From the IMG/VR virus record IMGVR_UViG_3300035670_001332, positions 1 to 22,348 of that record: a stretch of 22,348 bases of DNA. The stretch is one strand, 5' to 3'. The notes beneath the pieces are model-generated. The model was not told where the DNA came from, ran no database searches, and was given only the letters and a program-made list of their open reading frames with translations. This document shows, piece after piece, positions 5,307 through 22,277 of the stretch. This stretch comes from a virus. Every line of letters begins with the position of its first letter. Within the stretch, counting starts at the first letter, position 1. A program made the translations under genes and the position numbers.

Positions 5307-5380
5307 GACGTTGAGATGTAAAGTGCGCCGATCAGTGCAGCGATCAGGATGCACAGGGCGAGTGTGATTGTTGTTGTCAT
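5303..5380 (-). CDS. Tiny membrane protein, 25 aa
   Basis: ATG 5380 to TGA 5303 encodes MTTTITLALCILIAALIGAL followed by YISTS, a single transmembrane helix and little else. Its start overlaps the stop of the HNH gene (ATGA), and its stop overlaps the start of the 116-residue gene (ATGA). This exact stop/start chaining supports real translation. Function unknown; such minimal membrane peptides are common in phage early operons. Confidence 0.55.
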   Translation of the reverse strand: MTTTITLALCILIAALIGALYISTS

Positions 5381-5895
5381 GCTTGATTGATCCGAGCAAA
5401 TTCTTTAAATATATTTTTTGCAGCATTATTTCTAGCATTCACTGCATCCTGAAAAGAGGAAAAATGTCCAGAATAAACTTGTCTCCCGTTCATGCAAACT
5501 TTGGCAATATAACAATTGCTTCGTTTTGACCAGTAAACTCCAGTGGCACCGGTTTTATTATTACTGCGCAGCGGAGAATTAAATCTATTTTGCTGATAAG
5601 TGGCCAGCCTGAGATTTTCAATTTTATTATTAATTTTATTGCCATCTATGTGATCAACGCACATGCTTCCAGGATCTTCTTTGTAATAAAGCAGCCAGCA
5701 AAGGCGGTGTAGCTTGTAAGAATGCGATAAAAATCGTGTTTGATAATAACCAGTTGAATCAACTGAACCTACAGATTTTCCAGCTTTCATGTATCTGCTG
5801 GCATTGAATCTCCAAGTCACTGTTCCCGTCTCAAAATCGTAATTCATAAAATAATTAACCACTTCAAATGGTGGTAATTTTTTAAATCGCGTCAT
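5377..5895 (-). CDS. HNH homing endonuclease with AP2 domain
   Basis: A 172-residue free-standing HNH endonuclease. The HNH core is visible as HRLCW, CVDHIDGN and NKIENLRLAT. A C-terminal AP2 DNA-binding domain follows (GATGVYWSKRSNCYIAKV ... SGHFSSFQDAVNARNNAA). The base composition is clearly AT-richer than its neighbours, suggesting recent arrival. It is inserted between two genes with 4-base ATGA overlaps on both sides, so it sits inside a translationally coupled chain without disrupting it. A related gene lies at 16026-16505. Family members nick or cut DNA to promote their own spread. Confidence 0.92.
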   Translation of the reverse strand: MTRFKKLPPFEVVNYFMNYDFETGTVTWRFNASRYMKAGKSVGSVDSTGYYQTRFLSHSYKLHRLCWLLYYKEDPGSMCVDHIDGNKINNKIENLRLATYQQNRFNSPLRSNNKTGATGVYWSKRSNCYIAKVCMNGRQVYSGHFSSFQDAVNARNNAAKNIFKEFARINQA

Positions 5896-6770: not shown

Positions 6771-7024
6771 AGGAGGCTGATTTCAAGGAAGGATTTGGCG
6801 TCAGAAATTGACGTGAAGGTGCGTTTGTACGTCGCCATGAATGGCAGATCGCGGTCAGCCAGCCAAAGGGCGTAGCCGCCGAAGTCGTCAGTGATCTTGG
6901 CGATTGGGGTGCCGTTGAGGTGGGCGACGATTGGGAAGCCCGCCTTGGCACTCACATACTGTACACGACTGCCCGTAGGCGTCAAGGGTTCAGCATGCTG
7001 AAAGCGGTAATTCGTTGAGTCCAA
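6767..7024 (-). CDS. Hypothetical protein, up to 85 aa
   Basis: The frame contains KAGFPIVAHLNGTPIAKITD then GGYALWLADRDLPFMATYKR, a small beta-rich fold that looks conserved. The longest version uses TTG 7024 and overlaps the RecB-like gene by 43 bases. A TTG a few codons further in, at the start of TPTGSRVQYVSAKAG, would lie almost at the stop of the RecB-like gene and may be the true start. No function recognised. Its stop overlaps the next gene's ATG. Confidence 0.6.
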   Translation of the reverse strand: MDSTNYRFQHAEPLTPTGSRVQYVSAKAGFPIVAHLNGTPIAKITDDFGGYALWLADRDLPFMATYKRTFTSISDAKSFLEISLL

Positions 7025-7713
7025 TGAGTCTCATGGCGAGAAAGGTCTTTGCCTGCCGCTGCAACAGGGAAAGCCGGCTGATCAGGGAAGGCGTATAGGG
7101 CGATGAACCGCTGCACCTGGATGCCGTAGTTCTCAGCCAGACAGATCCGGTATGCCTGCATCTGGGTCATCGCCTCGTCGCTGATCTGCTTGGTTGGCTT
7201 GGCCTTGCCCGGTGCTTTGGTCTTCAGGTCAAGCAGGCAGAACTCACCGTTCAGCTTGACAAGGGCGTCCAGGGTGCCGGCGAAGGGGACAATGCCTTCA
7301 TCGCTGCAGACCTGATGCTCGGTGCAGACAACGTGATCAAGGTGCTTCCAGAGCGGAGCCTTGATGATGTTCTCGCACCAAGGAGCAATGTGTTCAGGAA
7401 TCTCAGGTGATTCTCGATTTAAGAATTGTTCAAACCAGTCATGGATCTGCGAGCCACGTTTGGCGGCTTGATCACGGGTCTCATCAGGATCACCACCTTC
7501 CGCGATGATCTTCGCCTTCCAGCGACGCAGTGCCATCTTGGTGGCTTCTGACTGCGTTGCAGACAGGATCGAGGTGATGCTGCTGTAGCGCAGGTCAGGA
7601 CGCCGTTCATTCCAGTAGTAGCGCGGCTGCCCTACAGGATTGCGCTGTATCAGTGGCAGACGCTGCAGAGGCACGAAGTCGCTACTGCTTTCTGGGATGG
7701 TAACGAAGATCAC
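6982..7713 (-). CDS. RecB/Cas4-like PD-(D/E)XK exonuclease
   Basis: A 243-residue nuclease of the RecB/YqaJ/Cas4 type. Motifs in order: AKRGSQIHDWFE (His91), CTEHQV (Glu132), FAGTLDALV (Asp149), LLDLKTK (Asp162, Lys164) and AMTQMQAYR (Gln185). These match the GxxxH, E, D, DxK and Q-x-x-x-Y motifs of phage exonucleases in this superfamily. It probably works with the annealing protein encoded at 9884-10621 in recombination or replication repair, which is inference from context. The start is GTG 7713, overlapping the stop of the upstream gene (GTGA). Confidence 0.88.
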   Translation of the reverse strand: MIFVTIPESSSDFVPLQRLPLIQRNPVGQPRYYWNERRPDLRYSSITSILSATQSEATKMALRRWKAKIIAEGGDPDETRDQAAKRGSQIHDWFEQFLNRESPEIPEHIAPWCENIIKAPLWKHLDHVVCTEHQVCSDEGIVPFAGTLDALVKLNGEFCLLDLKTKAPGKAKPTKQISDEAMTQMQAYRICLAENYGIQVQRFIALYAFPDQPAFPVAAAGKDLSRHETHWTQRITAFSMLNP

Positions 7714-9698: not shown

Positions 9699-9884
9699 AT
9701 GCCATTTCCCATGGCCATCCAACTGACCGCCAAAGCTTCCACCCTGAAGACTGTGATGCTTCAGATCGATCCCGACCTCTACACCCGCATCAAGGCCGCC
9801 GCCAAGAAGCACAACCTGCCCGCCGCTGTCGCCATGCGTCAGATCCTTGAGCAGGGCATTGAAGAGGTTGAGGCCAACGCCTGA
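9699..9884 (+). CDS. Small ribbon-helix-helix-like DNA-binding protein
   Basis: A 61-residue protein. A short strand (LKTVMLQIDPDLYTRIKAAA) is followed by two helices (KKHNLPAAVAMRQILEQGIE), the usual shape of ribbon-helix-helix regulators. ATG 9699 follows AGG by five bases; ATG 9711 (MAIQLTAK) is an alternative. It is the first gene of the rightward operon next to a divergent promoter region, so it could act as an autoregulator controlling both directions, which is inference. Its stop overlaps the next start (TGATG). Confidence 0.6.
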   Translation: MPFPMAIQLTAKASTLKTVMLQIDPDLYTRIKAAAKKHNLPAAVAMRQILEQGIEEVEANA

Positions 9885-10621
9885 TGAGCGACATCACTCC
9901 CGTCTATCCCAAGCTGGCGGGAGTCATCACTCTCTCTGATGTCAAGCAGAAAGGGTCTGGCTCCTACGCCGCTGACTACATCCCTTGGGCGAAGGTGATG
10001 CAACTGCTGAACGAGCATTGCAACGGCTGGCTGCCTGAGCTGATCGCTGCTGATGGTGGTGGTCCGATTCACAAAGCACCCAATGGCACTGGTTACATCT
10101 GTCTTGTTTTCATGAAAGGCGAGGCAACAACAACCATCTGGCCATACGCGATCACCGACAACCGGAACAACCCAATTCCGTTTGACAAGATCAGCGCCCG
10201 CGATCTGGCCGATTCCCACCGGCGAGGCATTTGTTCTGCAGCCGCAGCGTTCTTCTCGCTTGGTTTTGAGCTGTGGGCAAGGGAAGAGGTGGCAGCCTCT
10301 GTTGAATCAGTTGAGACTCAACCTGAGACGCAACTGCAGGAAGCCTCAAAGCCTGCACCAAAGCAGCGCAAGAAGGATCCTGAGCCGACCAAGTTGCCGC
10401 CGTCAGCCGACAGCGAAGCCAACATCAAGCAAGGTCTCATCGACAACTGCGTCGATCTGATCCAACGCAAACTTGATCGCACCCAGCAAATCGCCTGGAT
10501 CGCGGACAAGGCCACCAAGTGGGATCTTGATGAAAGCGGCAGTAAGCTTGCGCAAATGTCCGTCGATCAGCTCCAGAGCTGCATTGATGAATTGGGCAGT
10601 AAACCCGACCTGAAACAGTGA
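9884..10621 (+). CDS. DUF1071-type single-strand annealing protein
   Basis: A 245-residue protein. The first 135 residues match the DUF1071 (Rad52-like/Sak) annealing family pattern: YIPWAKVMQLLNEH, GTGYICLVFMKGE, the ITDNRNNPIPFDKISARDLA stretch and RRGICSAAAAFFSLGFELWA. A Lys/Pro-rich linker (APKQRKKDPEPTKLPPSA) leads to a helical C-terminal domain (NCVDLIQRKLDRTQQIAWIA) like those that recruit single-strand-binding proteins. It anneals ssDNA in phage recombination, probably together with the RecB-like nuclease encoded leftward at 6982-7713. It is joined to its neighbours by one-base TGATG overlaps. Confidence 0.8.
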   Translation: MSDITPVYPKLAGVITLSDVKQKGSGSYAADYIPWAKVMQLLNEHCNGWLPELIAADGGGPIHKAPNGTGYICLVFMKGEATTTIWPYAITDNRNNPIPFDKISARDLADSHRRGICSAAAAFFSLGFELWAREEVAASVESVETQPETQLQEASKPAPKQRKKDPEPTKLPPSADSEANIKQGLIDNCVDLIQRKLDRTQQIAWIADKATKWDLDESGSKLAQMSVDQLQSCIDELGSKPDLKQ

Positions 10622-12613: not shown

Positions 12614-12674
12614 TGGATTTCTTCTTCCTTTCGACTGCGATCTTCTCTACGATTTGTGCAAACGGGAGAGCGCC

Positions 12675-12989
12675 ATGCACTCTTGGATCGACGAGACCAG
12701 TCTGATTCCAAAGAGAGAAACAAGAGCGCGATTCAGGTTAAAAATTTTTGATGCCTTCTGTGGTAAATGTGCCTATTGCGATGAACCTGCGCAGTCGCTA
12801 GATCACATTATCCCACGTCATCGCGGTGGACAAACTGTGATAGAAAACCTAGCCCCAGCATGCCTGCGCTGCAATGGGTCCAAAGGATCAACAGAATGGA
12901 CGCTTTGGTATAGAGAGCAAGATTTTTATACACAAGATCGAGAGATTGCCATTTGGCGGTGGATGTATCAGTTCAAGGATTTACCTTAG
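12675..12989 (+). CDS. HNH endonuclease, McrA-like
   Basis: A 104-residue protein from ATG 12675, preceded by GGGAG at good distance. Hallmarks: CAYCDEPAQSLDHIIPRHRG, NLAPACLRCNGSKG and a Trp-rich C-terminal helix. The CxxC / DHIxPxxxGG / N / CxxCN order is the McrA-type HNH fold with a structural zinc. There is no AP2 domain, so it differs from the two HNH-AP2 genes in this window. It may be a homing or packaging-type HNH, or part of phage DNA processing. It is the only rightward gene in this part and overlaps dcd convergently by 17 bases. Confidence 0.9.
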   Translation: MHSWIDETSLIPKRETRARFRLKIFDAFCGKCAYCDEPAQSLDHIIPRHRGGQTVIENLAPACLRCNGSKGSTEWTLWYREQDFYTQDREIAIWRWMYQFKDLP

Positions 12990-13497: not shown

Positions 13498-14514
13498 TCA
13501 GTAATCCCAGCGAATACGAGGACGACCCAGCCGCATGCCTAGATGGACGAATCCTTTCGTCGCACCATAGCCAAGTGAATACGGCCAAGTCTGGTCACAG
13601 TACTCTTGCACCTCATAGATGTCCACATCCTTGACGTAAAAGTCAACGGCGCCAACACCGGTCATGTTGTACAAGTGTTCGCTGTTGGCCGCACCACCAA
13701 CCTGCTTGTTGATCGCTGGTGGCCGATAGCCGGATGTAATAATGATCGCCTTGCCGCCGAAATGGCTGCGGATTTTCTCCAAGTACTTGCACAACTCCAG
13801 AGCCGTATCGCACTGAGCTTGCACCTGAAAGCGGCGCTTCTCGTCAAACAGTGCCAGCTCGCCATAGGTGATATTAGGCGTCACCTTGAAGCTGAATGGT
13901 TTATCAGGTGTGAACTTGTCAGCCACCGGTTTGCCTTGCACATGCTGATCCATGAGTTTGATCAGCTTGAACGCGTATCCTGGATCCGTGGCGTAGCCAT
14001 CATTAACCAACCAATGAGCAGCCTTTTCGCGATCTGCCGCGTTGTTACAGCCCTTATAGATGTGATAGTCCTTGTACCAACGCTCAACCAAGTAATACAC
14101 ACACGTCTCAAGATCAGGGAAATCAAGGAACGTATCTTGAATCGTGATCCACTGCCCGTTGATGTACTCCTTCGTATTACGGTTCGTACCTGATCCTTTC
14201 AAGCCAAAGTAATTGTGTTCGCCTGATACGTGCTTGCCAAAGCCAGATTCCAATGCCCACTGTGCAGCAACAAGTTCGGGGAATTTGGCACCAGCTTTCT
14301 TGGCAGCAGCACAAACACCATCCCAGTTGTTATCAAATCTGTCCTGTTTGCCAGCTTGACTCCACGTCTTGAACCAAGTCTGATCCCTGTTCAAGATGCC
14401 CGGCTTTGCTTTTAATATCGCAGATTCCAATTCAAAGATTGCCGCCGTTTGATGCGGCAACTCCTTGTAATACTTGAACAGATCAACTAGCCGCAGGCGG
14501 TTCTGGGTCGTCAT
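13498..14514 (-). CDS. Endolysin: glucosaminidase plus M15 peptidase
   Basis: From ATG 14514 (MTTQNRLRLVDLFKYYKELP) the product is 338 residues with two peptidoglycan-cutting domains. The first (about 60-190) is a glucosaminidase/FlgJ-type domain: AAQWALESGFGKHVSGEHNY with Glu89, then YFGLKG. The second is a zinc M15 D,D-peptidase: IIITSGYRPPAINKQVGGAA, SEH (His280), VDF (Asp291) and FVHLG (His324). It cuts both glycan and peptide bonds, either as the lysin or as a virion-associated lytic enzyme. It overlaps the upstream gene by 32 bases and lies next to membrane proteins that may form the holin/spanin part. Confidence 0.88.
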   Translation of the reverse strand: MTTQNRLRLVDLFKYYKELPHQTAAIFELESAILKAKPGILNRDQTWFKTWSQAGKQDRFDNNWDGVCAAAKKAGAKFPELVAAQWALESGFGKHVSGEHNYFGLKGSGTNRNTKEYINGQWITIQDTFLDFPDLETCVYYLVERWYKDYHIYKGCNNAADREKAAHWLVNDGYATDPGYAFKLIKLMDQHVQGKPVADKFTPDKPFSFKVTPNITYGELALFDEKRRFQVQAQCDTALELCKYLEKIRSHFGGKAIIITSGYRPPAINKQVGGAANSEHLYNMTGVGAVDFYVKDVDIYEVQEYCDQTWPYSLGYGATKGFVHLGMRLGRPRIRWDY

Positions 14515-14827
14515 CGTTCCAAGGAGATGAGATGGACATTGGACCACCCAGAAGGCGGCTATCTCCAGTCTGCTCAGGCGTAGGCTCTTCGTGTTTAATT
14601 ACAGGCTGACGTTTGTTTCGCTCCATTTCAAGATCAATCACCTGATTGACCTTTTCAATTTCACGATCCAGTCGTGGCGTCAGAGTTGCATGAAACTTGG
14701 CTTGTTGAGCAGCACGCAGTAGGTGATGCCGCCAGTCACGCTTGTCGTAACGCCACAACCAAACAACGTCAGCGTTCAACGCTTTGGGAACAGAATCTTC
14801 AGCGCCTTCATAATGAGCTGCACCCAA
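14483..14827 (-). CDS. Hypothetical lysis-module protein, 114 aa
   Basis: A 114-residue hydrophilic protein. A Trp-rich N-terminus (NADVVWLWRYDKRDWRHHLL) leads to a long helix (LTPRLDREIEKVNQVIDLEM) and a Pro/Asp-rich tail. No membrane helix or lipobox is seen, so a spanin role is not supported. ATG 14827 overlaps the upstream 45-residue membrane gene by 52 bases, and the tail overlaps the endolysin start. Function unknown. Confidence 0.55.
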   Translation of the reverse strand: MGAAHYEGAEDSVPKALNADVVWLWRYDKRDWRHHLLRAAQQAKFHATLTPRLDREIEKVNQVIDLEMERNKRQPVIKHEEPTPEQTGDSRLLGGPMSISSPWNDDDPEPPAAS

Positions 14828-16025: not shown

Positions 16026-16505
16026 TTAGTGGCGAGCAAATTCGCCGTGAAGTTTTTCGCGCAGTTCTCGGACGGCCTTAGCGCACTCATCTTTGTCTTT
16101 GAAGTAGCCCGCACGATAGAGCTTGCCTTTGTGCCAAACCTGTCCAGCCCAGCGTTTGTGGGCATTGAGCCAGCTTACACCCTTGATGCCGGAAGTGTTA
16201 TCTTTCCGAAGTTTTTGATTGCGTTGATTTTGCGAGTTGGTGACTGGACGTAGATTTTCGATTTTGTTGTTGAGTTGATCGCCGTCAATGTGGTCAAGCA
16301 TTTCAACAGGATCGTTGCCGTGCATGATCCAGATCAGGCGATGCGCCATATATTTTCGATAGTTGATGCAAATACAGCGGTAACCACGGTTGCCAACCGA
16401 ACCCGCTTCTTTCTCATGCCTGCCCTTCCAGTACAGTTTGCCGTCTTCATAATCGAAAAGCGTATGCAAAAGATCTTGATTTAGTTGGGTGCTTTCCAGT
16501 GCCAT
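16026..16505 (-). CDS. HNH homing endonuclease with AP2 domain
   Basis: From ATG 16505 (MALESTQLNQDLLHTLFDYE) the product is 159 residues. The HNH core is MAHRLIWIMHG, MLDHIDGDQLNNKIENLRPV and NSQNQRN. A C-terminal AP2 domain reads GIKGVSWLNAHKRWAGQV and GYFKDKDECAKAVRELREKL. It is a relative of the gene at 5377-5895 but diverged. It starts immediately after the terminator that follows the tail fibre, so it may depend on readthrough. The TTG start proposed by the longer frame lies inside the terminator and is less likely. Confidence 0.92.
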   Translation of the reverse strand: MALESTQLNQDLLHTLFDYEDGKLYWKGRHEKEAGSVGNRGYRCICINYRKYMAHRLIWIMHGNDPVEMLDHIDGDQLNNKIENLRPVTNSQNQRNQKLRKDNTSGIKGVSWLNAHKRWAGQVWHKGKLYRAGYFKDKDECAKAVRELREKLHGEFARH

Positions 16506-16546
16506 AAAAAACAAGATGAGTCAGTTAGTATAGCTGACCCATCTTG
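16506..16546 (-). terminator. Intrinsic terminator after the tail fibre
   Basis: On the minus strand CAAGATG and GTCAG pair with CTGAC and CATCTTG (16512-16524 with 16534-16546, one mismatch) around a 9-base loop. Six Ts follow (16511-16506). It lies 18 bases beyond the tail-fibre stop and ends the structural operon. Confidence 0.88.
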
Positions 16547-18518: not shown

Positions 18519-21500
18519 TTAGCCGCCTCGGCCATAGCCAACCGCACTCCAGTTGAAATTACGGTTGACCGCCGTTCCACCCGAGTTTTTGAAGGTGACC
18601 GTAAAGCCGGTGCTGCTGATGCTGGTGACCTCAAAGTATTCGCCGCTTCCCATGTTCAAAGCCGTAATGCCGATGCTGGGAAGGTAGGTGTTGACGCCGC
18701 CCAAGCTGGCCGTACCAACGAAAAATGGCTTGTCGAAGGTGATGGCCTTGGCGCCTGCTCCACTGGCAATCGTGCCGTTGCTGTTTTCGGTGCGTCGCTG
18801 CAGCGTGGCGGTGTAGCCCAGCTCGTCGATCAGGATATTCTGCGCCACGTCATTGGACTGCAGCTCGGCTTGGAACTGAAGCGCCCGCGCCTTGTAGGTG
18901 CCGCTGATGAACTCCTGATAGGACGACCAAGTTGGCGTGCCAGTCGGATCGTCTTCTGTAGTTCGCACTTTGAGGACGGCGTTGACACGGTTCACGTCGG
19001 CGCCATCCCAGTTCAGCCAATCGTCAACTTCTCCCGTGCGGCCATCCATTGTGTCGTTCGGCAGGAAGCCACGGGTAACAAAATGGCGCGTCAGATCCAG
19101 CGAGAAGGTATTACCAAGGTCAAGCGTATTGGCAAAGCTGTAGGTGCCGGTGGACGTAATGTCGCCCATGAAGTCAAACGAGGTCAGCGTGTCAACGTCG
19201 GCAACATCGTCAAGAAATTCGGTGCCATCCAGCGTTAGAGCGTCGTAGCCGTCGTCGTAGAAAACATCAACTTGGCTGCCTTGGAACGGTGGACTGTCTT
19301 GGTCTTCGCGGCGCGTTTGGACAATCAGCTTGCCTTGGGTTTCAGGCAAGTCAATGATGATGCTGGTTTCGTTGGGGCTAAGGCGTCCGCCATCGTCAAT
19401 GAAGCGAACGAAGATTTCGCCTTCCACCAACGGGATTGTGGCGGTGGTTGCGTTTCCGGGAAGCGCAGGAACAAGGTCAACAGAATCGTTCCAGCTAGCG
19501 GAGCCGTCAGTCAAAGCGGAGTGACGAACATAAACAGCGCCACCGTTTACAACGTCAACTTCAAACGATGGTTCCCAACTAAGGCGTGCTGTGTTATCAC
19601 TCAGGACTTCAAGCTGCAGATTTTGAACGTCAGCAGGGTTAGCTGTTTTGCCAGCCAAGTTAAAAGTGGCGGTCGATACTGCGCCCTTTTTGCCGAGTGC
19701 ATTTTCAACTTGGATTTGAACATTAAGGGTGCCTTCACGTAGACGAGTTAAAGCAACTGATGGTGCAGTTGTATTGAGACGCTGCCAGTTATCGTTGTCC
19801 ATTCGATACTGAACAACGTAATTATTGATCGCACCAGCGGGCGGAATCCAGTCAAGTTGGAAGCCGACAAGTGCGCTATTTCCTTCGGCATAAATGTATT
19901 CGTAGCCGCTGATGCTACTTACAGGATTTGGAATTTCACTGAGGTTTGAAATGTCGGGCGTTGTGATGACAAGATCACTTTCAATCGAGTTGTAAATTGA
20001 CTGGTTATATGCCAGTGCAGTGACGCCGTAAATGCCATCTTCGGCTTCAGCGACATTCAGCACTCGGTATTGTTGAGCTTCAACGTCACTGGTTTGGATT
20101 AGCCAAATCGCGTTGGCGTTGGGTGCTTCGCTGAACGCGCTGCTGACGTTGATGGTGGTGCCGGAGATGCTGCTGATGGTTTTGGTTTCCACCAAGCCGG
20201 TTGGCATCAGCACTGAAATGGTTGGGCTATTTGACAGGTTGACGGTGAGGTTGGTGCTGCTGTCAACGGTGATGGCGGTTGTGGTGGCAGAACTGACGCG
20301 ACCACTGCGGCGTGTGCCAGCCTTCATCGGGTCGGCAACGTCAATCACCATCCCAGGGCGCAGGATGATGCCGCTGTCAATGGAGACCGAGAAGGTAACG
20401 GTTTCGGTCAGATTTTGTTCGCTCAGCAGCGCCCACTTACCAGCACGGTGCGCTTGACCTTGGCTGTAGCAACCCAGTGCCTTAATGTCCTTGTTAATGA
20501 TGCCGTATTTGGAAACGGCACTTGCGTCTTCAACGTATTCGTATTGAACTTCACCAAGCAATTCGTAGGTTTGATATGCAACAGTTGCAGTGGTGTGGCG
20601 TGCTTTTTGCGATGTGCCGCTGTAAACAAAGATGCCGTCAACAACGTTGCTTGGTCCCAACAGATATTGCGGATCACTGGGTTTGTCTTGTTGCAACACC
20701 AGCGAACCGGCGCCGTAATAGGCAATGCCACGAAACAGGCTGGTCATCTCTTGAATAACGTTGTAAACCTCGTCGCGGCTGTTGATCAGCAGGTTGCAAG
20801 AGAAACGAGGCTCCAAGCCGCCTTTACCGTTGTCAACAAGTTCGTTGCAGTATTGGCTGATGGAATAGAAGTCGTAGCGGTCAAGGCTGCTGGTAGGAAC
20901 ACTGGCGCCGTAGCGGGTATTGGTCAGCAGATCCCATAGACACCACGCTGGGTCGTTCGTCCATGTGGCTGCAGCAAACGTGCCGTCCCAGACACCGGCG
21001 TAGGTGATACGACCTGGATGCGTGGTGGTGTCAACCGTGGCGTTGCTCGGGATGGCAACTTTGATGCCGCGAACCAGATATTTGCGGCTTGGGATGTTAT
21101 TGAACTGGCGCGAGTCAAAGCGCAGGAATGCAAGCGCGGAGTTTGGATAGCGAAACCGCTGGTCAATAATTTCGGTGTAGCTGTACCAGTACAGTTCGTT
21201 TTGCGTTCTGGCAGATGTGGCGTCATCACTGGTACGAACAACTTTGACATCAACTGGGAACGCACCAGTCAATTCAAAAACGTAATCGCGCTGATAACGG
21301 CTGCTGGTTTTGCCTGCAATCGTGTCGGTTGCAACGGTATTAAAGCCACCGCCGTTGTATTGAACTTTGATTTCTAGCGAAACGCTCGTGGCAAGGATGT
21401 CGCCGTTGGTTTCAAATTGTTGAAGGTTTGGGACAACAATGGTGACGCGAATTCGGTCAATGTTGTTGTTGGCAATCGAGCGAGTTACAGGGAAGTCTTT

Positions 21501-22277
21501 GGTAACTTCAACATTGACAATGTTCTCGCTTTCGGTGCCAATGATGTCTGGGATAACCGCCTGATCCTGTGTGCCGTTGCGGGTGACGACGGTGTAGCCG
21601 GTGAAGTTGGGGCTGTCGTTGGAATCAACGATTGGGGTGCTATCGAGATAAATGCCCTTGGTGCCGTTTTCAATGCCATCAATCTCGCCTTCACCAAGGA
21701 GATCCAGCACATTGGCGTATTGGACGGATTGCAGCGAATCGTCAGCTTCCGTTGGGGTTCGTTGTGCAGCACCACCGCCAGCGCCCTTGCCACCGCCACC
21801 ACCGCCACCGCCAGCGCCAGCGATGCCAAGACCGAGGCCGGCATTGTGGACGCGAACACCGTTGGCAATGAAGGTGTGGTGACCTTCGACGGTCAGGTTG
21901 TAGACCGTGCCATTGCAGAACTCGGTCTTGCCGACAATGGGGCGGAGGTGGCCGTTGTGGTCAACGAGGCAGTCGTCAGAACCGAGCGTGTCGATTTCGA
22001 CGAAGGCATTGAACTGGTTGAGAACCCAGTGGTTCGGTGTGGCATCAAGATGCTGTCCGCCCCAGAGCGTGTAGCGGATGACGCGTTCGTTTTCGTGTTC
22101 GTGAACCTTAAGGATCTTGGCTTCGTGGACTTCGCCCGTGTGGTCAAAGCTCAGGACCAGATCGCCAGCCTGCAGTTCATCAATGCGGCGTTGGCCGCCT
22201 GGAACCGCGACAAGCGTATGCCCTAGGAAGCAACCGCCACCACCGCCGCCACCACCAGCGCCAACAATTCGTTTCAT
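18519..22277 (-). CDS. J: Tail-tip host specificity protein J with Hint domain
   Basis: A 1252-residue tail-tip protein. After a poly-Gly start comes a Hint domain (residues 16-145), then a second Gly-rich tract and the usual J start (RTPTEADDSLQSVQYANVLD, LLGEGEIDGIENG). Lambda J landmarks include SSYQRDYVFE, YWYSYTEIIDQRFRYPNSAL, WCLWDLLTNTRYGA and LGCYSQGQAHRAGKWALLSE. Two fibronectin III-like segments lie at roughly 795-985, and the C-terminal domain ends YGRGG. J forms the central tail tip and contacts the host receptor. ATG 22277 overlaps the stop of the upstream gene (ATGA). The inserted Hint domain makes this an unusual J protein. No break is seen in the frame. Confidence 0.93.
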   Translation of the reverse strand: MKRIVGAGGGGGGGGCFLGHTLVAVPGGQRRIDELQAGDLVLSFDHTGEVHEAKILKVHEHENERVIRYTLWGGQHLDATPNHWVLNQFNAFVEIDTLGSDDCLVDHNGHLRPIVGKTEFCNGTVYNLTVEGHHTFIANGVRVHNAGLGLGIAGAGGGGGGGGKGAGGGAAQRTPTEADDSLQSVQYANVLDLLGEGEIDGIENGTKGIYLDSTPIVDSNDSPNFTGYTVVTRNGTQDQAVIPDIIGTESENIVNVEVTKDFPVTRSIANNNIDRIRVTIVVPNLQQFETNGDILATSVSLEIKVQYNGGGFNTVATDTIAGKTSSRYQRDYVFELTGAFPVDVKVVRTSDDATSARTQNELYWYSYTEIIDQRFRYPNSALAFLRFDSRQFNNIPSRKYLVRGIKVAIPSNATVDTTTHPGRITYAGVWDGTFAAATWTNDPAWCLWDLLTNTRYGASVPTSSLDRYDFYSISQYCNELVDNGKGGLEPRFSCNLLINSRDEVYNVIQEMTSLFRGIAYYGAGSLVLQQDKPSDPQYLLGPSNVVDGIFVYSGTSQKARHTTATVAYQTYELLGEVQYEYVEDASAVSKYGIINKDIKALGCYSQGQAHRAGKWALLSEQNLTETVTFSVSIDSGIILRPGMVIDVADPMKAGTRRSGRVSSATTTAITVDSSTNLTVNLSNSPTISVLMPTGLVETKTISSISGTTINVSSAFSEAPNANAIWLIQTSDVEAQQYRVLNVAEAEDGIYGVTALAYNQSIYNSIESDLVITTPDISNLSEIPNPVSSISGYEYIYAEGNSALVGFQLDWIPPAGAINNYVVQYRMDNDNWQRLNTTAPSVALTRLREGTLNVQIQVENALGKKGAVSTATFNLAGKTANPADVQNLQLEVLSDNTARLSWEPSFEVDVVNGGAVYVRHSALTDGSASWNDSVDLVPALPGNATTATIPLVEGEIFVRFIDDGGRLSPNETSIIIDLPETQGKLIVQTRREDQDSPPFQGSQVDVFYDDGYDALTLDGTEFLDDVADVDTLTSFDFMGDITSTGTYSFANTLDLGNTFSLDLTRHFVTRGFLPNDTMDGRTGEVDDWLNWDGADVNRVNAVLKVRTTEDDPTGTPTWSSYQEFISGTYKARALQFQAELQSNDVAQNILIDELGYTATLQRRTENSNGTIASGAGAKAITFDKPFFVGTASLGGVNTYLPSIGITALNMGSGEYFEVTSISSTGFTVTFKNSGGTAVNRNFNWSAVGYGRGG
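21843..22232 (-). other. Hint (intein-like) domain inside J
   Basis: Codes for J residues 16-145. It starts with Cys16 (CFLGHTLVAVPGG, block A), has the block B T-x-x-H (ATPNHW, Thr80/His83), the block F sequence YNLTVEGHHTFIANG and ends VRVHN. Residue 146 is Ala, not Cys, Ser or Thr. This layout matches A-type bacterial intein-like domains more than a normal intein. There is no homing endonuclease. Poly-Gly tracts (GAGGGGGGGG on both sides) flank it. It may cleave at one or both ends, or splice weakly. Confidence 0.9.

Follow-up and report, generated by a model that had tools for sequence, protein, structure and literature searches.

The tail-tip gene J of this virus probably carries a self-excising cassette, an A-type bacterial intein-like (BIL) domain or mini-intein, that enters the start of J by recombination between GGN tracts and carries no homing endonuclease. 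The window (the whole stretch of DNA analyzed, a virus record of 22,348 bases) encodes a J protein with a Hint domain near its N-terminus and ∼1100 amino acids of tail-tip J downstream of the Hint. The protein begins with MKRIVGAGGGGGGGG, continues with the Hint (CFLGH...GVRVHN) and then with AGLGLGIAGAGGGGGGGGKGAGGGAAQRTPTEADDSLQ; residues 146 onward read AGLGLGIAGAGGGGGGGGKGAGGG. The features are located as follows.

18519..22277, minus strand: gene J, lambda-type tail-tip protein, 1252 amino acids (PHROG 31, E 1e-229; FNIII-A_GpJ, 4.5e-38; Phage-tail_3)
22233..22277, minus strand: N-terminal peptide (N-extein) MKRIVGAGGGGGGGG, J residues 1–15, corresponding to the first residues of Hint-less J
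22234..22268, minus strand: direct repeat copy 1, 35 nt, GGN tract, 83% identical to copy 2
21843..22232, minus strand: Hint domain, J residues 16–145 (Cys16 to Asn145), from Pfam, NCBIfam, PDB sequence search, profile and predicted fold
22230..22232, minus strand: Cys16 (Hint position 1), predicted thioester former, invariant in 117/117 distinct J-Hints
22029..22040, minus strand: TPNH, residues 80–83 (block B TxxH), with T, N and H invariant in 117/117
21876..21878, minus strand: His134 (block F His, Hint position 119), invariant in 117/117
21843..21848, minus strand: His144-Asn145 (block G), predicted site of Asn cyclization, invariant in 117/117
21789..21842, minus strand: C-terminal flank AGLGLGIAGAGGGGGGGG, residues 146–163, with Ala146 at +1; its first part travels with the Hint and is absent from Hint-less alleles
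21790..21824, minus strand: direct repeat copy 2, 35 nt, GGN tract, 444 bp (148 codons) from copy 1

The Hint is 130 residues long and is a complete domain by Pfam, NCBIfam and PDB sequence searches. Domain searches and relatives confirmed what had first been noticed in the sequence, namely a Hint in J residues 16–145 with Cys1, TxxH, HN and Ala at +1, bordered on either side by GAGGGGGGGG tracts. The initial annotation gave the feature as 21843–22277, which is correct as a stretch of J (residues 1–145); the Hint proper covers 21843–22232. Pfam matches were to Intein_splicing (8e-9; 35.9 bits, cut-off 35.8), PT-HINT (6.7e-8) and Hint (1e-7), and NCBIfam matched TIGR01443, intein C-terminus (5e-7). 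When a profile of 35 relatives was searched against the PDB, the best match was CthBIL4 (2LWY, an A-type BIL of Clostridium thermocellum; 3.9e-16), with the Mtu RecA and gp41-1 inteins ranking behind it. In an AlphaFold model, 122 of 155 residues had a pLDDT of at least 90, and both Gly arms were of low confidence. Top Foldseek matches to this model were BIL and intein folds only, the best being Tetrahymena BIL2, Ssp DnaB and CthBIL4 (TM 0.87 normalised to 2LWY). The A-type BIL character first proposed for the domain is thus supported by C1, TxxH, HN, the +1 Ala and the rank of 2LWY as best profile match.

A DNA pattern for the empty site (Met, a short peptide and GAGGGG-K-GGGG, without the insert) returned 120 stretches, essentially all of them Hint-less J genes and many of them near relatives of carriers. 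One empty J (L412) has a core 96% identical to that of a carrier (L271), their DNA is 82% identical on the upstream side (679 nt) and 87% identical on the downstream side (2,003 nt), and the two differ by one clean insertion. The pairs L390/L281, L361/L242 and L346/L089 are likewise near relatives that differ by a clean insertion. Comparing J homologs with and without the insertion, a check suggested at the outset, therefore yielded near-identical J genes lacking the Hint at the same site. Carriers and non-carriers also share metagenomes (L281 and L305 in 3300037847, and several of each in 3300037961).

The inserted unit consists of the Hint plus ∼14 residues, AGLGxxIxGAGGGG, and therefore the two Gly tracts form a direct repeat. 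Normal J had been said to resume after the second tract. This needs a small correction: the insert includes the second copy of IxGAGGGG together with the preceding AGLG, because Hint-less J genes have the first copy only. The start of J is common to carriers and non-carriers, for example MTQTKYIQGAGGGG in both L281 (with Hint) and L321 (without). We rejected the reverse arrangement, in which the first Gly copy would be a duplicate and J would truly start at the second, because Hint-less alleles match the first copy, as the same pair illustrates.

Since close relatives exist without the Hint, J does not need the insert and an essential maturation switch is unlikely. A role in tail maturation had been suggested initially; a needed role is not supported, as near-identical J genes do without the domain. 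The corresponding explanation, that the Hint is a dedicated maturation or timing device that blocks J assembly until cleavage and makes processing a step of tail morphogenesis, would fit the strong selection on all catalytic residues. It would also fit one deep clade of the J tree in which 30 of 31 rows are carriers. Against it, carriers and non-carriers are interleaved and the same site is empty in near-identical genes, and we consider it rather unlikely.

At least 451 IMG/VR stretches encode relatives of the Hint, as found by a scan whose patterns contained neither Cys1 nor His-Asn. Among the best 80 of the 451 contigs, the Hint lies at the same J site with 84–97% identity. A second IMG/VR scan with a diverse profile found further J-Hints ∼50% identical to the first sequence of the profile. 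The Hint in J is far beyond chance, as judged from the best 80 contigs. Positions C1, T65, N67, H68, D87, H119, T120, H129 and N130 are invariant in all 117 distinct full-length J-Hints. A family with degenerate Hint residues, named beforehand as an observation that would speak against processing, was thus looked for and not found, all 117 copies being intact. For the same sequence pairs, the median dN/dS was 0.073 for the Hint versus 0.042 for the J core; the Hint is under strong purifying selection. Since its residues do not decay, probably either an unprocessed Hint is harmful or an active one is useful.

The residue at +1 was Ala in 123 of 124 loci scored. In a wider set, +1 was Thr (L204, L220), Ser (L283, L295) or Gly (L251, and L119 and L203, which have another J type). 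Note that the J-Hints with Thr or Ser at +1 have a natural nucleophile there and could splice like class 1 inteins. The most constrained stretch is the flank from +1 to about +10 (AGLGxxIxGA), with pN/pS of 0.003–0.024, which speaks for a genuine reaction site at the C-side junction. Conservation of C1 alongside HN argues that both junctions matter. Two further tests were set aside. Relaxed selection on the N-terminal peptide, as proof that it is discarded, was not decisive (pN/pS 0.39–0.47 with Hint versus 0.21–0.41 without), and a test for covariation between the IxG[AS] motifs on either side gave 10/26 matches with a permutation p of 0.03 that ignores relatedness.

The pattern of conservation bears on two other explanations. 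A Hint retained in J as a folded decoration, such as a surface or binding domain that performs no chemistry, is conceivable inasmuch as Gly-rich linkers would tolerate a folded insert and some other phage proteins have terminal Hint domains. This explanation is very unlikely, as it gives no reason for the invariance of C1, TxxH, the block F His and HN in 117/117 copies and leaves the extreme constraint just past HN unexplained. Still less probable is a thioester cross-linker, in which another tail protein attacks the Cys16 thioester and the N-terminal peptide is joined to this partner in the manner of Hedgehog. That first reaction requires C1 and TxxH alone, and the residue at −1 is Gly; however, HN is conserved as fully as C1, and the transferred peptide would be 15 residues only.

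We therefore return to the self-excising cassette. Because all the cutting residues are preserved, the Hint probably still removes itself. The residues for the thioester (Gly15-Cys16) and for Asn145 cyclization are all present and selectively kept; the class 1 +1 nucleophile alone is missing. After translation, Cys16 would form a thioester with Gly15 through an N-S acyl shift aided by TxxH, and Asn145 would cyclize, aided by the block F and block G His. With both of these predicted steps, J would be cut free of the Hint on either side. Because +1 is Ala, the branched ester of class 1 inteins could not form, so the products would be either cleaved or re-joined J. On balance, our analysis favors cleavage, in which J would begin at Ala146 and lose the 15-residue N-terminal peptide. 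Splicing, in which the free Ala amino group would attack the thioester and J would be re-joined as ...GGGG-AGLG..., is possible but doubtful, and the +1 Ala counts against it by lowering the chance of ligation. Some other outcome of J processing is quite unlikely. In the mechanism proposed for type A BILs, a thioester forms and Asn cyclizes, ligation follows if the newly freed amino group attacks that thioester, and cleavage products dominate (PMC4031507). By this course, the Hint would be expected to leave mostly by cleavage and sometimes with ligation. Either product would leave J with its usual Gly-rich N-terminal arm, and such a site could therefore tolerate an imperfect excisor, which would explain how the insert comes and goes without harm to J.

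The history of the Hint differs from that of J. The tree of 109 J cores requires the Hint to have been gained or lost 15 times or more (33 with shuffled labels), with 8 of these events forced by well-supported branches; the count is approximate due to recombination within J. AU tests on 66 carriers showed that the Hint data reject the J topology (p 7.6e-61) and that the J data reject the Hint topology. In sliding comparisons of DNA identity, the carriers L240 and L264 are ∼0.5–0.6 identical over most of the flanks, 0.93–0.98 in the Hint and 0.64 from ∼60 bp after it, the drop lying in the Gly tract, and their synonymous divergence is lower for the Hint (0.19) than for the core (0.67). Values for the window versus L004 run from 0.60 to 0.90–0.94 and then to 0.70 and ∼0.6. 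These comparisons indicate that the Hint has moved between distant J lineages as a cassette. Presence/absence pairs and sharp cassette boundaries support the earlier proposal that it entered by recombination in the Gly-rich repeat. The explanation that Hint-less alleles are assembly artefacts from collapse of the 35-nt repeats that flank the Hint, and that presence/absence is not real, is highly improbable because the window repeats are merely 83% identical, Hint-less J fills whole clades and occurs in isolate genomes, and Hint-less genes recur in separate contigs of a lineage (L355/L412; L302/L341/L361).

No endonuclease was found within the insert. From the position of the cassette boundaries, we infer that the GGN repeats are the exchange sites. 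Recombination genes such as those of the window, which encodes a Sak-like single-strand annealing protein (9884–10621, just below the Pfam curated cut-off) and a PD-(D/E)XK nuclease (6982–7713), could use these repeats. Three HNH endonuclease-like ORFs are also present in the window (16026–16514, 5377–5895 and 12654–12989), one of them located downstream of J, ∼2 kb from its end. Transfer via a neighboring HNH gene was considered and rejected, relatives of the three genes being found at 1/43 long carrier loci versus 1/42.

A-type BIL domains were reportedly described by Amitai in 2003 and Dassa in 2004. Like CthBIL4 (2LWY), the J-Hint has the Hint fold, Cys1, TxxH, a C-terminal HN and a non-nucleophilic +1 residue, and so has the sequence features of this type. 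Unlike known BILs, it occupies a fixed site in a conserved virion protein and has empty alleles. Known BILs are found where non-conserved bacterial proteins are hypervariable (PMC7765530), a setting that J does not provide and that is the usual one, not a structural criterion. Class 1 mini-inteins (gp41-1, Ssp DnaB, the Mtu RecA splicing domain) share with the J-Hint the fold, the catalytic blocks, the lack of an endonuclease domain, and a single insertion site with intein-less alleles and a history independent of the host gene. For the J-Hint, these last features are evident from the insert-less homologues and from the AU test and sliding identity. Class 1 mini-inteins differ in having Cys, Ser or Thr at +1, where the window has Ala146, and in lying at active sites, whereas the J-Hint is in a disordered Gly arm of a structural protein. 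By its active-site residues the J-Hint thus matches an A-type BIL, and by its genetics, as read from these sequences, it is intein-like.

PT-HINT and Hedgehog Hint domains belong to the same superfamily (PT-HINT by the Pfam match, Hedgehog 1AT0 by fold). The J-Hint differs from them in being internal, in having neither toxin cargo nor sterol-binding part and in retaining HN for C-side chemistry. PT-HINT domains lie just before the C-terminal toxin of a secreted protein, whereas here ∼1100 amino acids of J come next. Hint elements also occur in other phage genes, such as the inteins of phiCbK TerL, Mic1 TerL and the CL131 dCTP deaminase. Phage inteins in terminase, helicase and nucleotide enzymes have enzyme hosts and some have a homing endonuclease domain; the J-Hint has neither. 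The nearest Hint of a Vibrio phage helicase has Cys at +1, in contrast to Ala in the J-Hint. Reported cyanophage inteins are in terminase or dCTP deaminase (PMC7156551, PMC6293099).

Among 50,697 isolate phage records, no J-borne Hint was found. The nearest full-length matches in isolate phages are ∼30% identical and lie in other genes (hypothetical proteins, terminases and a helicase-like protein among them). Phage tail-tip proteins with a Hint or BIL domain were not described in the open-access literature searched. The host of the window phage is probably a picocyanobacterium, although the evidence is suggestive only: the window endolysin best matches Synechococcus phages S-CBS1 and S-CBS3, the best isolate match of J is Prochlorococcus cyanophage MED4-117, and one copy of the Hint (L206) is in a contig of a cyanobacterial MAG. 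The endolysin-like protein at 13498–14547 has glucosaminidase and peptidase M15 domains. In Prochlorococcus phage P-HS2 (MT490303.1; L083), the J frame is interrupted: its N-terminal part (P-HS2_00064) ends prematurely and what follows carries no annotation, whereas the J found at this place in MED4-117 is long.

Other arrangements of Hint and poly-Gly were also observed. Three ORFs of 441 or 398 amino acids (L105, L149, L199) encode an apparent lambda I-like tail-tip protein with a related Hint between poly-Gly tracts and Gly at +1, so the Gly tracts of a second tail gene have also received one. Two ORFs of 2072–2073 amino acids (L119, L203) encode a second, unrelated-looking J type with a Hint between poly-Gly tracts and Gly at +1; outside the Hint, no isolate phage matched this type. 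In a further group of phage proteins (L090, L103, L140, L157, L170, L179, L180, L184, L186), poly-Gly leads into a Hint at the C-terminus whose HN lies a few residues before the stop, an arrangement that differs from that of the J-Hint.

Inteins are usually found in DNA or nucleotide enzymes, many of them mobile via a homing endonuclease, and BIL domains have been described in variable bacterial proteins. New here are the size and invariance of the Hint family, the empty alleles, the movement of the cassette without an endonuclease and the absence from isolate J. Here, a BIL-type domain acts like an intein without an endonuclease, in a virion protein, and is present in hundreds of environmental phage contigs and in none of the isolate records searched. 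These copies may well belong to a family of mobile intein-like elements that lack an endonuclease and are widespread in the virion proteins of uncultured aquatic phages. Such elements would insert into disordered tail-tip Gly arms (J, the I-like gene and the second J type) by homologous recombination between GGN tracts and remove themselves through BIL chemistry, while the +1 residue drifts between Ala, Gly, Ser and Thr. If this is true, they stand between inteins and BIL domains as a living intermediate. The observations raise the questions of how inteins that lack an endonuclease can persist, whether the +1 nucleophile can be lost without harm where no ligation is needed, as in an intein-to-BIL transition, and whether self-cleavage processes the tail tips of aquatic phages. 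J N-termini predicted from Hint-carrying genomes probably differ from those of the mature protein.
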